Source of the DNA: a virus
IMG/VR virus record: IMGVR_UViG_3300030406_002001
Coordinates: 1-64,000 of that record
Strand: one strand, 5' to 3'
DNA length: 64,000 nucleotides
Position numbers and translations under genes: made by a program. The first letter of the stretch is position 1. The number at the start of each line of letters is the position of its first letter. Shown piece by piece: positions 34,641-62,500 of the stretch. The notes under the pieces are model-generated. The model worked only from the letters and a program-made list of their open reading frames with translations, had not been told where the DNA came from and ran no database searches.

Positions 34641-35701
34641 TATTTTAAAACTCCATATAAAACAGCATTACCTGCACTCATATTAGAACTTGCATGATAA
34701 TATTTAATTGCATCTATTCCTGTTGTTGTTCCTAAACCTATTACACCATGTGCAACTACCACAGATGATGCATTATTCCATCCTGTTTGTAAATATTCAA
34801 TAGCAACTCGTGAACCATTACTAACATTTCTTGGGTCATGAATTATTATATTACCTCTATATCCATGTGATTCACCAAAACTACCTAAAAGTTTACCATA
34901 ACTACCATTTGATACACCATAAGTATTTACATTATTATTTGGTCTACCAGTAACTGCACACCAATAATATGCTGTATTATAATAACTGCTTTGATTAACA
35001 CCTTTTATTTCGCATCTTATTTCACCAGTACCTGTTGCATGAGAGTGTGATATAATAAGTGTTTGATACGTTGCACCATAAGCATATAATCCTGTAAATT
35101 CAATAAAGCTTTGATTAGTTGAATCTGTAACCTCTGCAAGTTTAACTAAACCACCTGCACTAGCAAATTCCATTTGTCCTACTGCTGTAGCACCACTACC
35201 TGTTATACTTTTTACTTTAAGAAACTTATCTGCTGTAGGTGAATTGTCTGGTAACTTTAATGTCCAACTTTGTCCTGCTGAGTGGTCTGGACTCTTTAAC
35301 TTTACTCCATGACTGTTTACCTCACAATTTAATTGTATTGCTCCCCCTTCACCACCTGCTCCTTTTGATATAAGTGTAGGTGCAGTAGCTAACTTATCAT
35401 TCGTTACAGTATTATCACTTGGTGTTCCTATATTAAGAACATCACCTAATACTATAATAAAATTTATTACATCACCTGTAACCAAATTACTTGCAAAAGT
35501 AATTGTATGATTTGAAATTGTAAAAGAACTGCCGGGATTTTGAATTATACCATTAAGACTAACAAGCATGTGATTTGCACTTGCAGGACTAAAATTTGCA
35601 GAGTCTTTTTGCATAGTATATGATGCTTGACCATTAACAACAGATATGGTGTCTAGCTTTATAAAGTTTCCTGTTATAGGTTGATTTCCAATATAGGGCA
35701 T
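34640..35701 (-). CDS. Tail fibre/adhesin, partner of the gene at 1-536
   Basis: 353 aa from ATG 35701, chosen because it starts MPYIGNQPITGNFIKLDTIS like its relatives; an earlier in-frame GTG has no support. The first 110 residues are nearly identical to the gene at 1-536, then differ. The C-terminal 170 residues are a beta-rich putative receptor-binding domain (GLYAYGATYQTLIISHSHAT). Confidence 0.75.
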   Translation of the reverse strand: MPYIGNQPITGNFIKLDTISVVNGQASYTMQKDSANFSPASANHMLVSLNGIIQNPGSSFTISNHTITFASNLVTGDVINFIIVLGDVLNIGTPSDNTVTNDKLATAPTLISKGAGGEGGAIQLNCEVNSHGVKLKSPDHSAGQSWTLKLPDNSPTADKFLKVKSITGSGATAVGQMEFASAGGLVKLAEVTDSTNQSFIEFTGLYAYGATYQTLIISHSHATGTGEIRCEIKGVNQSSYYNTAYYWCAVTGRPNNNVNTYGVSNGSYGKLLGSFGESHGYRGNIIIHDPRNVSNGSRVAIEYLQTGWNNASSVVVAHGVIGLGTTTGIDAIKYYHASSNMSAGNAVLYGVLK

Positions 35702-36204
35702 TAGTTTGCTACCTCCAACCAAATAACTGTACTAGGTGAACCTGAGTAATTATTATTATTACTTCTATTAATTCGTAATATTGTATTGTTGCCTCCAGTT
35801 GAAACTTTACCTTGACATTTAACTGGTATTGCTGAACCATCAGTATTTGTAATACTTGTAAATATTGTTGAAGGCATATATGCATTATTATTTAATGATG
35901 TACTATTGTAAAAAACATGAGTTGCTACTGGTGTAGTTGATGTTGTTGATAAAAAATCAGAACCATCTATTACCCATTTATAAAATAAATATGTATTAGT
36001 TCCACCATCAAAATTTGCAACACCAGATATAAGAACAATACTATTTGAACTTGATGGTGTAAAACTACCAAAATCTAAATCATCTGCATAGGAAGTTGCA
36101 CTTGCCCTTTCAGAGTTTTCTGTTATTTGTGTAATTTTATGACTCAATAGTTTTCCTCCAACACCTGTTGATAATGAACTTGCTAATATTTTACTTAATG
36201 GCAT
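35701..36204 (-). CDS. Small adhesin-cassette protein, copy of 536-1027
   Basis: 167 aa, very like 536-1027 over its whole length, with small insertions near the end (STGGNNTILRINRSNNNNYS). Overlaps the next gene in TAATG form. All-beta, no membrane segment; tail-tip role inferred. Confidence 0.7.
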   Translation of the reverse strand: MPLSKILASSLSTGVGGKLLSHKITQITENSERASATSYADDLDFGSFTPSSSNSIVLISGVANFDGGTNTYLFYKWVIDGSDFLSTTSTTPVATHVFYNSTSLNNNAYMPSTIFTSITNTDGSAIPVKCQGKVSTGGNNTILRINRSNNNNYSGSPSTVIWLEVAN

Positions 36205-36207
36205 AAT

Positions 36208-36483
36208 CTATTCCTTTGGGTATTTGTCCTTAACTGTTTTTATTGTTTTTTTCCAACCATCTATTCCATTATGATATATATCATCTAATTGGTCTGGTAT
36301 AGATGGATATTCTAATTCCCTTTTATATTGATACTCATTAGGGTCTTTCCAAGCATTAACCTTTGTCCAATCTATAGTAACTAATTTACCATCTTTGTCT
36401 TTTGCAACTATTGTTTTTTCTGTATTGCCATCAATAGAAATTACTGAATTGTGTATTGCTCGTATAGCTTTATGATAATCCAT
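36208..36483 (-). CDS. Tail-fibre assembly chaperone-like protein (91 aa)
   Basis: The end YPSIPDQLDDIYHNGIDGWK, then TVKDKYPKE, is the XkdW-like/tail-fibre assembly motif common beside phage adhesins. The N-terminus differs from its partner at 1031-1348. Its start overlaps the preceding adhesin stop. Confidence 0.7.
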   Translation of the reverse strand: MDYHKAIRAIHNSVISIDGNTEKTIVAKDKDGKLVTIDWTKVNAWKDPNEYQYKRELEYPSIPDQLDDIYHNGIDGWKKTIKTVKDKYPKE

Positions 36484-37319
36484 TATGCAGATACCTCTTG
36501 TGCTGTTAAAGAACTTGTGCCGCCGACTATTAGAGCATCATTTTGATTGCCATTAGGTCTATTAAGATTAAATGTTTCCCCACCTCGTACATATACTTGT
36601 AGTTTATATGTTATAGCATTTGTGGTTGAAGGTGTATCTAAAAGTTCAAATCCAGAAGTATATATTTTATATTGTCCATTAGCTGAATGGGGTGTATTAA
36701 ATCCAAAAGAAGCTTTTACTTGACTACTCAAAGATACTGCTGTTGATTGCCCTATATGTGTTGAATCTCTCAGAACGTTTATTCCACCATACATATTAGC
36801 CGTTCCACCATGTTGCATTACAACACGAATAAGTATTTTATTACTACTAGATGCTGGTGTAATAGAAAGTGTCATTCCAGTAATATCAACAAATGAACCA
36901 CTTGTAGTAGAAAAAGTATCAGTTTTAAATGCTTGTACTACTTGTAATATTTTACCTCCACCAGCTTCTGCAAAACTATTATCACCTCTTAAAAATGTTG
37001 TACTGTTTTTTGTACCTGTTGCTGACAACTGTGCTATTCCAACACTACCACTTGCAGGATTAATTGTACCTACGGCTCTTCCTATATATACACAGTACAT
37101 ATCATCTGTACCTGCTGTCGCCTCTGTGAGCGTCAAACTTGTACCAGAAGCCGAATATGCTGTGGTAGGTTCTTGTCTTACATTATTAATAAATAAAGCA
37201 ATATCATTAGCATTAGTTACAGATTGAGATAACGTATAACTTGTTGTAGCACTTACAGAAAAATCTTGTTTAACAAGTGATTGTGATGATGTTGTAGGTG
37301 CAGAACCAAGATAAGGCAT
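36483..37319 (-). CDS. Tail fibre/adhesin, partner of 1351-2196
   Basis: 278 aa. Residues 1 to about 118 match 1351-2196 almost exactly (KQDFSVSATTSYTLSQSVTN, DDMYCVYIGRAVG), while the C-terminal domain is different (AFKTDTFSTTSGSFVDITGM, a beta-sandwich-type domain). A conserved base with exchangeable tip. Confidence 0.75.
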   Translation of the reverse strand: MPYLGSAPTTSSQSLVKQDFSVSATTSYTLSQSVTNANDIALFINNVRQEPTTAYSASGTSLTLTEATAGTDDMYCVYIGRAVGTINPASGSVGIAQLSATGTKNSTTFLRGDNSFAEAGGGKILQVVQAFKTDTFSTTSGSFVDITGMTLSITPASSSNKILIRVVMQHGGTANMYGGINVLRDSTHIGQSTAVSLSSQVKASFGFNTPHSANGQYKIYTSGFELLDTPSTTNAITYKLQVYVRGGETFNLNRPNGNQNDALIVGGTSSLTAQEVSA

Positions 37320-37663
37320 TAGGTTATCTCCATAATTGACAATGCAACATCTAATGCCGTTGCGGCACTTGCTTGTGCTTTAATAACATCAGTAGTTTGC
37401 ACGACAACTTTTTGTCCTCCAAACACCTCAAGTGTAGTATTAGCAGGGATATCTACTCCTTTTAGTAAAAAAACATCTGCATTTGTTTCTGTATCATTTG
37501 TATTACTTACTAATTGTACATCTGCAGTTATTGCACTTGACGTTTTATTACTTAATGCCATACCTAAAACAACAGTACTTGTGTTTGAAGGCACAGTATA
37601 TATTGTATCTAACGAACTATTACTTACACTTGCTTTTGTTTTTACTTTAAATGTATTTGCCAT
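37319..37663 (-). CDS. Small beta-rich tail protein (114 aa)
   Basis: Partner of 2206-2532: SNSSLDTIYTVPSNTSTVVL, then GVDIPANTTLEVFGGQKVVV, and a short hydrophobic C-terminus. Soluble beta protein, probably a tail-tip adaptor. Overlaps the adhesin start by one base. Confidence 0.6.
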   Translation of the reverse strand: MANTFKVKTKASVSNSSLDTIYTVPSNTSTVVLGMALSNKTSSAITADVQLVSNTNDTETNADVFLLKGVDIPANTTLEVFGGQKVVVQTTDVIKAQASAATALDVALSIMEIT

Positions 37664-58053: not shown

Positions 58054-58416
58054 TTACGTCAGGTCTATATTGATAGAGAAATCACCTTTAACTAGGTGCT
58101 GATGCTTGTCAGGTGCTTTAAATCCTGCCCTGTCAAGTATATCTTTACTGGCTTCCAACTGTACGTACTCTGATTTAGCATCAGTACAGAGTCTAAGTAA
58201 CGTGCTACTTGCCTTCGTCGCACTCAGTCCTAACGTTCTTTGTATCTCTTGATTCATATATTGCTGTACCTTTGGAGTTCGTAGCATCTTACTTGCACTA
58301 ACACGGGCACTAGTGCCCTTGTATCCTGCGACTTTGGACGCCTTGGTTATCGTACAACCTGTGGCTACGAGTGTATCCACTAACAATTTCGCCTTTGCTG
58401 ATATTTCGTTGCTCAT
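58054..58416 (-). CDS. terS: Putative terminase small subunit (module B)
   Basis: 120 aa. KAKLLVDTLVATGCTITKAS, then KVAGYKGTSARVSASKMLRT forms a helix-turn-helix of small terminase type (AAxxAGY..), followed by KVQQYMNQEI and helices. First gene of late B with a strong promoter upstream. Within the gene a perfect 14-bp palindrome GGGCACTAGTGCCC occurs at 58305-58318. Confidence 0.75.
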   Translation of the reverse strand: MSNEISAKAKLLVDTLVATGCTITKASKVAGYKGTSARVSASKMLRTPKVQQYMNQEIQRTLGLSATKASSTLLRLCTDAKSEYVQLEASKDILDRAGFKAPDKHQHLVKGDFSINIDLT

Positions 58417-58430
58417 AACTACTAACTCTT

Positions 58431-58459
58431 CTTATACTTGTTAATCTTTCATTTGTCAA
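58431..58459 (-). promoter_or_regulatory. Late B promoter upstream of terS
   Basis: On the minus strand TTGACA (58454-58459), a 17-base spacer and TATAAG (58431-58436), a near-consensus sigma70-type promoter 15 bases before the terS start. No phage RNA polymerase is seen in the window, so host polymerase use is likely. Confidence 0.85.
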
Positions 58460-58513
58460 CATACCATGTATCATTGAGATACTACACCTATGAAAAGATA
58501 TGCTGAGCATACC

Positions 58514-58542
58514 AGAACGGCTAAGAAGCCGTTCTTTCTTTT
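58514..58542 (+). terminator. Terminator-like hairpin facing early B
   Basis: AGAACGGCT / AGCCGTTCT, a perfect 9-bp stem (58514-58522 with 58527-58535) with an AAGA loop, followed by TTCTTTT on the plus strand. No plus gene precedes it closely, so it may insulate or end a short transcript. Confidence 0.7.
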
Positions 58543-58571
58543 CAAAGCTTCCGTATCTCTTTTATAATAAT

Positions 58572-58633
58572 CATACTTGCCACATTGCAAGTATGCAAAA
58601 ATGTCACCTTACTTTGTGGTATTACAAAGTAAG
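58572..58633. repeat. Two tandem perfect hairpins
   Basis: CATACTTGC / GCAAGTATG (58572-58580 with 58587-58595, 6-nt loop) and CTTACTTTGT / ACAAAGTAAG (58608-58617 with 58624-58633, 6-nt loop). Related ATCATACTTTGCC follows at about 58648-58660. Iteron-like arrangement in the control region between the late and early B modules. A TATAAT at 58641-58646 lies just after. Confidence 0.75.
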
Positions 58634-58657
58634 CAAAAAATATAATATCATACTTTG

Positions 58658-58831
58658 CCTTTTACCACGTCCCGATAATTATAGTACAAGAAAAAAGACA
58701 GCACGGTGGGTCCCGGCACTTCGTGCCACCCTTCCGGCGTACGCTTTTGTCTTGTACTAAATTTCGGCTCAGGTTGGGTGCCCGCAATCAAGATTGCGAC
58801 CCTGCCCTGCGGTAAACTACGTGGTAAAAGG
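58658..58831 (+). ncRNA. Candidate structured RNA with three-way junction
   Basis: A perfect 13-bp closing stem pairs 58658-58670 with 58819-58831 (CCTTTTACCACGT / ACGTGGTAAAAGG). Inside, a 9-bp stem TAGTACAAG / CTTGTACTA (58682-58690 with 58751-58759) carries a hairpin GGGT-ccc-GGCAC-ttc-GTGCC-ACCC (58708-58731). A second arm at 58776-58802 has the same layout, GGGT-gcc-CGCAAT-caag-ATTGCG-ACCC, flanked by CAGG/CCTG. GC content is far above the surroundings. A TATAAT at 58641-58646 would start a plus transcript about at the closing stem. Strand and function are inferred; a 5' leader element or DNA structure (origin) is also possible. Confidence 0.6.
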
Positions 58832-58835
58832 AAGA

Positions 58836-58868
58836 GTGATATTTGTATATTATGTATACAGGTATCAC
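58836..58868 (+). promoter_or_regulatory. Inverted-repeat control site before early B
   Basis: GTGATA (58836-58841) and TATCAC (58863-58868) flank an inner GTATA/TATAC repeat and a TATTAT box, 35 bases before the first early-B gene. A likely operator-promoter. AAAAGGA follows as ribosome site. Confidence 0.5.
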
Positions 58869-58902
58869 GTAATATTAACTCATAATAAAAAGGATAAACA
58901 TT

Positions 58903-59421
58903 ATGAAACAACCAAAAAATAAAACAATTGGTAGTGTTGCAAAAATAGTAAACACTATTGTAACTGAGTTAGACCGAACATATACTGCAGGTCTACTCAA
59001 TCAGTATGACGACCCATCTGCGACCTTAGTTGGTTCAATGATTGAGTCTTGTCAGTACCTAATAACTAATGATAAAGCAAAAAATACAACTCTATACATC
59101 TCAAACGAAGCAGATGAAAAATACAATCTGTATCTAAGAGAGCTTGAGGATAAAAAAGAACAACATAATGACCCTAAATTCGCAGGGCCTAAACGTTTTG
59201 ATAACCTTGCTCTTGAAGAAGCAGTTGACTTAGTTGAAGGTAACGGAGGCGACGCTATTGATAGAAAAGTTATCGCTAACTCAAACCTTGAAGCCATCAA
59301 AATGCTACAATCAGACTTGTTTGATTGTTACAAAGCAATGTTTGACAGAGAGTACGTACTTGTTGATGAAAGAAAATCATCAACAGTAACTAAGCGTCCA
59401 TCACGTAAGATGATTGCTTAA
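58903..59421 (+). CDS. First early-B protein, unknown (172 aa)
   Basis: Soluble, helical, mildly acidic (MKQPKNKTIGSVAKIVNTIV, then ELDRTYTAGLLNQYDDPSAT) with a basic C-terminal end (VTKRPSRKMIA). It is expressed alone between a control region and a strong terminator, suggesting an abundant early protein. No family recognised. Confidence 0.75.
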   Translation: MKQPKNKTIGSVAKIVNTIVTELDRTYTAGLLNQYDDPSATLVGSMIESCQYLITNDKAKNTTLYISNEADEKYNLYLRELEDKKEQHNDPKFAGPKRFDNLALEEAVDLVEGNGGDAIDRKVIANSNLEAIKMLQSDLFDCYKAMFDREYVLVDERKSSTVTKRPSRKMIA

Positions 59422-59429
59422 CTAAACTA

Positions 59430-59466
59430 AACCCAAGTGTTACCTTCCTGACACTTGGGTTTTTTT
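59430..59466 (+). terminator. Strong Rho-independent terminator
   Basis: AACCCAAGTGT / ACACTTGGGTT, an 11-bp perfect stem with a 10-nt loop followed by TTTTT. Ends the 58903 transcript. Confidence 0.93.
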
Positions 59467-59478
59467 ATGATTACGGAA

Positions 59479-59508
59479 CACCCCCTTGTGCTTCGCACGG
59501 CGGGGGTG
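59479..59508. repeat. GC-rich hairpin
   Basis: CACCCCC / GGGGGTG (59479-59485 with 59502-59508) enclosing GTGC-ttc-GCAC with an asymmetric tt/ggc internal loop. No T-run follows. The TTC triloop and stacked layout resemble arms of the 58658-58831 element. Confidence 0.65.
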
Positions 59509-59559
59509 CCACCTTCGTATCATTTCACTATCATCAGTACAAAATAAAATCAGTACGAC

Positions 59560-59588
59560 TTGCAATGCAAATGTCAGTACTATATAAT
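59560..59588 (+). promoter_or_regulatory. Early B promoter
   Basis: TTGCAA (59560-59565), 17-base spacer, TATAAT (59583-59588). Three TCAGTAC words at 59534, 59550 and 59574 lie around it. A leader ATAACAATGAAAGGA precedes the next gene and is nearly repeated before 62524. Confidence 0.8.
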
Positions 59589-62103: not shown

Positions 62104-62500
62104 ACAAAGAACAGATGCTATCAGTAATGCGGCCTCATTTTATTTAGATGATGTCTTACACAAAATCAAAGCATGGTACAAGGTAATGCAACCTGCTTCA
62201 ACTAAAACAGTTGGTATGGTGCTAGAAACTATTGCATCAACATTCAGTTGCAATGTACCTAATGAACTTGGACTAAGTGTTTATATAAAAATACTAAGTC
62301 GTTTCCCAGAATTTGTACTGACATATAATACAGAAAAAATTATTGCCAGTGCAAAATGGCGAAGGCTTCCATTACCTAAAGAATTTCTTGATGTAATGGA
62401 GCCAGATTTTGAACGCCACAAGCTGTGGCTACAAAACTTTCACCAAACCTATTTGTCGTTTGCACAATGGCGACAAAAACGGTATAATACTACAATATAA
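61883..62500 (+). CDS. Early-B protein overlapping the HTH gene (205 aa)
   Basis: ATG 61883 with GGAGAG seven bases upstream; the first 221 bases overlap 61609-62103 out of frame. It is helical (MTITKNEKSLLTITNQLEQL; LSVYIKILSRFPEFVLTYNT; IIASAKWRRLPLPKEFLDVM). Similar late segments (KWRRLPxPKxF) occur in phage replisome-associated proteins, but I cannot name the family. Internal ATG codons (about 62000 and 62075) would reduce the overlap. Confidence 0.6.
   Translation: MTITKNEKSLLTITNQLEQLKAIGTLPSETGSDEHTSLPMHEKIRKATWSSVPRAFKKDVNESLMLLTYDLRHKQRTDAISNAASFYLDDVLHKIKAWYKVMQPASTKTVGMVLETIASTFSCNVPNELGLSVYIKILSRFPEFVLTYNTEKIIASAKWRRLPLPKEFLDVMEPDFERHKLWLQNFHQTYLSFAQWRQKRYNTTI
62460..62488 (+). 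promoter_or_regulatory. Promoter for recombination genes
   Basis: TTGCAC (62460-62465), 17-base spacer, TATAAT (62483-62488), inside the end of the previous gene. The leader ATATAATAACAATAAAAGGA resembles that at 59582. Confidence 0.75.

Follow-up and report, generated by a model that had tools for sequence, protein, structure and literature searches.

A three-way hairpin element with exchangeable arms beside terS in a probable Hodr-like ocean phage

An elaborate three-way fold at the point where the late and early genes of a phage diverge raises the question of whether the folded molecule is RNA or DNA, and on which strand it is read. We analysed such a fold in a 64,000-bp stretch of DNA (the window), which comes from a virus contig of 67,849 bp and is related in its second half to Pelagibacter phage EXVC031P Hodr. 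The element is placed between the terminase small subunit gene terS on the minus strand and a divergent small gene, ORF1, on the plus strand (Table 1), which agrees with the late/early control region named in an earlier reading made from the letters alone (the sequence-only reading). That reading had regarded the element as a candidate structured RNA, with a TATAAT box placed to start a transcript at its 5' end.

We found that the closing stem pairs over 13 bp without mismatch, exactly where it had been described, and that the 64-kb window contains no other perfect 13-bp stem with a span of 180 or less; shuffles of the spacer produced one in 2 of 2000 cases. The two arms likewise follow the described order of GGGT, three-base bulge, stem, loop, stem and ACCC. 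Arm 1 has GGGT at 58708-58711, the bulge CCC at 58712-58714, the stem GGCAC/GTGCC and ACCC at 58728-58731, and arm 2 has GGGT at 58776-58779, the bulge GCC at 58780-58782, the stem CGCAATC/GATTGCG and ACCC at 58799-58802. The description as GC-rich in AT-rich DNA was also correct (GC 0.52 in the element vs 0.32 in the whole window). RNA folding gave a z-score of -6.7 on each strand (about -75 kcal/mol) and DNA folding gave -8.8 on the minus and -8.5 on the plus strand, with the same three-way shape on both. ARAGORN gave no match in the element, and the Rfam scan that had been proposed for it gave none at the gathering threshold or at E<=1, nor at E<=0.5 in 12 relatives, consistent with the earlier view that this is neither a tRNA nor a nameable riboswitch. 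All these support that the early/late control region contains a genuine structured element of three-way shape, one that belongs to no known RNA family.

Table 1 Features of the terS-ORF1 region in window coordinates.
Feature	Position	Strand	Basis or remark
terS, terminase small subunit gene, first late gene	58054..58416	-	PHROG 2538, 4.6e-12
terS promoter, TTGACA-N17-TATAAG, near-consensus	58431..58459	-	Many relatives have a comparable TTGACA promoter close to terS
Second, smaller three-way hairpin, upstream	58476..58559	none assigned	Kept with altered arms in L004, missing in L003
Inverted repeat CATACTTGC-N6-GCAAGTATG	58572..58595	none assigned	Identical across three relatives
Inverted repeat CTTACTTTGT-N6-ACAAAGTAAG	58608..58633	none assigned	Sequence, comparison with relatives
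TATAAT of the sequence-only reading	58641..58646	+	Without usable -35
Three-way hairpin element	58658..58831	none assigned	Fold z -6.7 (RNA), -8.5 to -8.8 (DNA)
Closing stem, left strand, CCTTTTACCACGT	58658..58670	none assigned	13-bp perfect; C-G to G-C double change in L004
Arm 1	58672..58767	none assigned	CCGA..TCGG base; GGGT/ACCC near tip; minus-strand C(GAA)G triloop
Arm 2	58770..58809	none assigned	CAGG/CCTG, GGGT/ACCC, CGCAATC/GATTGCG; C-G to G-C in L004
Closing stem, right strand, ACGTGGTAAAAGG	58819..58831	none assigned	As for left strand
Hairpin GTGATA..TATCAC, between element and ORF1	58836..58868	none assigned	Sequence
ORF1, small early helical protein, family not recognised	58903..59421	+	Homology and fold searches
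Intrinsic terminator 3' of ORF1	59429..59469	+	In most relatives, ORF1 is followed by a terminator-like hairpin

The stretch from 58441 to 59580 contains several of the window's strongest fold signals, including the segment 58441-58620, which covers the second three-way hairpin (z -6.2). The strongest of all (z -8.1, 59401-59580) comprises the ORF1 terminator followed by a bulged hairpin whose tip is GTGCTTCGCAC, with a TTGCAA-N17-TATAAT promoter directly after it, and the second strongest (z -7.0, 62281-62460) lies inside an ORF adjoining the HTH/replication-initiation gene. Because the terS promoter sits at the terS edge of the spacer, the element is upstream of this promoter and outside the transcript predicted to start there. 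The half-sites ATACTTG/CATACTTTGCC are repeated across 58431-58660, two of them as inverted repeats spaced by 6 bp and one at the terS -10, an arrangement that would possibly constitute an operator array. Searches of the ORF1 protein by family, Pfam, PHROG and fold were all without match. At the level of the whole window, positions 1-33800 and 33800-64000 are apparently two different phage genomes joined head to tail; the halves have 85-87% DNA likeness over about 2 kb only (61-2197 vs 35226-37320), most of their other matching proteins are 23-49% identical, and the contig may be an assembly chimera. Matches to genome contigs pointed to no clear host.

Relatives were gathered as phage contigs by terS-based searches, and their spacers were dereplicated to 72. 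At least one long stem was present in 60 of the 72 terS-ORF1 spacers, and across 45 spacers we counted 98 long stems vs 4 in shuffles. Hodr-like phages were recurrent across the marine contigs searched, and the phages carrying the hairpin region in their divergent terS/ORF1 spacer are most likely Hodr-like ocean podophages. In the close relatives L003 and L004, the flanks and the closing stem are kept and arm 1 is unrelated yet folded, without the GGGT..ACCC architecture. The repeated arms, which had been taken to argue against chance, are real in the window and part of a significant fold, but they are not conserved, and doubled GGGT..ACCC arms were rejected as a signature. Compensatory changes in homologues, on which the sequence-only reading had let its structure depend, were found: one pair of the closing stem and one of arm 2 are doubly changed in L004, and the recombinant L003 has a G:G mismatch at the closing pair.

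Comparisons of the apical parts extend this to the wider group. Three apical arm types recur, each within differing outer stems. Five pairs of the type II apical helix are doubly changed and the adjoining unpaired stretch is constant, and in the A5 apical helix both sides are changed at 5 of 10 pairs, the structure with this helix having a covariation score of 0.229 vs 0.069 when shuffled and at most 0.063 when slid. A pattern search with the type III (class III) apical motif, AAATCGGTTCCCCC..CCCCCCAATTT, reached the very distant phages L188 and L202, where the motif adjoins terS and is included in long hairpins (z -5.9 and -8.7); it stays with terS also in genomes with another divergent gene. 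A pattern search with the closing stem had only the two known relatives as real matches, a distant DNA search of the spacer against phage and plasmid records gave none, and the corresponding spacer of Vibrio phage VA-RY-3, a TerL relative, is unstructured (z -0.25). Short possible leader ORFs ending near or overlapping the ORF1 start could be read by eye in the spacers of L020, L008, L013 and L026. The double changes, the arm swaps and the apical motif beside terS in distant phages show that selection or active maintenance acts on the structure.

Covariation alone is no proof of RNA, and the strand tests point away from the obvious reading. On the plus strand the stems contained 73 A:C and 36 G:T pairs, the reverse of the excess of G.U over A.C expected of a plus-strand structured RNA or riboswitch, with A:C in excess in 17 clusters and G:T in 7 (Wilcoxon p 0.027), while G:T and A:C were balanced in the shuffled control. 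The asymmetry appears only with well-supported stems, and under a loose stem definition it was not significant (108 G:T vs 128 A:C); since loose stems blur the difference, we regard the polarity signal as moderate. In 23 of 28 clusters (p 0.004), the loops within the stems were rich in pyrimidines on the plus strand and in purines on the minus strand. The excess of A:C on plus means that the minus strand is the one tolerating G.U or G.T, and pair asymmetry and loop composition together indicate the minus, terS-sense strand. Compensatory changes are present in the helices of the plus-strand reading as well. A C-to-T mutation bias of the minus strand is disfavoured as the cause of the polarity, because the plus-strand loops contain more T than A.

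The tips of the hairpins bear on the choice between RNA and DNA. C(GNA)G triloops occurred 10 times on the minus strand vs 0.9 expected, the counts being small, and GNRA loops 9 times vs 6.0 expected, which is near background; UNCG loops were absent from the minus strand of the relatives' stems, and the terminator hairpins of the same phages had GNRA in 5 of 29. The heptamer GCTTCGC was found on the plus strand in 10 clusters and GCGAAGC in 1. Stable GNA-type tips are, in these few cases, enriched on the minus strand, which is the template strand of ORF1. In DNA, C(GNA)G tips are of exceptional stability, d(GCGAAGC) being the example cited in PMC10527192. The enrichment of DNA-type triloops and not of RNA tetraloops favours DNA over RNA, although on small numbers, and together with the A:C excess and the pyrimidine-rich loops it speaks against the plus-strand RNA originally proposed.

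Could the region nevertheless be a plus-strand 5' leader of ORF1, such as a switch or thermosensor hiding the ORF1 ribosome site? ORF1 is a lone gene, followed in most relatives by a terminator of its own, TATAAT boxes are present in the window, and the ORF1 Shine-Dalgarno is located within the closing stem in some groups of relatives, with P(unpaired) below 0.1 in 14/44 relatives vs 0/44 controls, which such a leader would explain. However, in both of the nearest relatives it is exposed (0.92, 0.96), and hiding of the Shine-Dalgarno was rejected as a general function because the trait is polymorphic among relatives. The TATAAT box is indeed there, but its role as the start of the element is weakened by the lack of a usable -35 and by the sequence TTTAAT in L004, and a plus transcript from it finds no backing in the sigma-70 matrix scores of 44 relatives, which are at chance level on this strand (6.77 vs 7.02 in shuffles); the same matrix recovers the terS promoter with a score of 8.9. 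With the pair and loop asymmetries also running against it, we consider this leader unlikely. A structured noncoding RNA or late leader on the minus strand, read through the element towards terS, also fits the G.U tolerance and purine-rich loops of that strand; its 5' and 3' ends would pair as the closing stem, and the minus strand folds slightly better on average (34/53 spacers). It is rather unlikely all the same, as matrix scores upstream of the structure show no excess on this strand (6.55 vs 6.47 in shuffles), terS is served by a promoter of its own that lies downstream of the structure, and the RNA tetraloops are absent (UNCG) or only slightly in excess (GNRA).

Two further explanations were weighed. 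The region may be a recombination-prone palindrome cluster, tidied by template-switch correction and with little function of its own. Template switching can yield compensatory changes in a single step, close relatives swap arms, and L003 is a recombinant with its closing pair broken. Such a cluster is improbable in view of the unpaired apical motifs, which are conserved while the flanking stems covary and which recur at the same place in distant phages. If the adjoining terminase recognised the region as a packaging site (pac or cos), this would fit its invariable place beside terS and a class III motif that tracks terS despite a differing divergent gene. Such a site is highly improbable: the near-complete contigs L013, L016, L062, L070 and L074 cross the spacer unbroken and end elsewhere, so a fixed genome end at the spacer, as a cos site has, was not observed, and the arm sequences are not conserved as expected for a terminase site.

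The reading that we prefer, tentatively and with rather less than even confidence, is that the element represents one form of a fast-exchanging hairpin region found family-wide in the terS/ORF1 spacer, folded on the minus strand and likelier DNA than RNA. Our best guess from the sequence patterns is a strand-polar hairpin control site, more probably a DNA site for replication or promoter control than an RNA. The structure itself, its constant position, the compensatory changes, the exchange of arms and the strand polarity are observed, and from them we infer DNA rather than RNA and a role in replication or regulation; a replication start and promoter control are each compatible with a folded DNA site. 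The spacer would be negatively supercoiled by gyrase and outgoing transcription, or single-stranded in replication, and its inverted repeats would then extrude. The C(GNA)G-type tips and the conserved purine-rich apical loops, a pattern observed in the spacers, would hold the minus-strand fold upon extrusion, and a phage or host factor binding it could start replication or switch transcription. A candidate binder is the phage HTH+DnaT-type initiator together with SSB. The Hodr genome encodes an HTH+DnaT protein, SSB, RusA and YqaJ; DnaT is a domain match in Hodr that Pfam did not recover in the window protein, and this counterpart has an HTH and weak replication-initiation matches. DnaA boxes were found in only 5 spacers. 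The early genes of Hodr include an ArdC-type anti-restriction protein (L002 13573-14457), and the window phage has a PHROG_1221 protein, with no function assigned, near the corresponding place. It is a bolder and somewhat unlikely proposal that these sites form an undescribed class of strand-polar DNA hairpins with exchangeable recognition arms, which start replication or early transcription in a widespread ocean-phage group. A folded site with cassette-like arm swaps offers an experimental handle on the replication start and the early/late switch of Hodr-like phages.

Large ornate folds, some of them phage-borne and of unknown function, are familiar from GOLLD, ROOL and other large RNAs; unlike these, the element has no Rfam match, and the strand and loop evidence disfavours a plus-strand RNA. 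The early promoters of phage N4 resemble it in that their early control region has strand-specific hairpins whose three-base tips are very stable; these DNA hairpins of the template strand, whose loop contains a sheared G:A pair, are extruded at physiological levels of supercoiling and used together with SSB (PMC4496689). However, a giant virion RNA polymerase reads the N4 hairpins, which are short, whereas the present elements measure 150-250 nt and have exchangeable arms, and no domain of a virion RNA polymerase was found in the three largest late-gene products checked. A further analogy is with the Frpo/ssi single-stranded DNA promoters of conjugative plasmids, long hairpins in front of early genes from which anti-defence and SSB genes are expressed (PMC11541004); the presence of ArdC and SSB among the early genes of Hodr adds to it. 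Frpo differs in having -35/-10 boxes in its fold, none being above chance here, and the phage genome, unlike the Frpo/ssi setting, is double-stranded. On the late proteins and promoter scores examined, the element belongs to neither the N4 type nor the Frpo type, and the two serve as its nearest working analogies.
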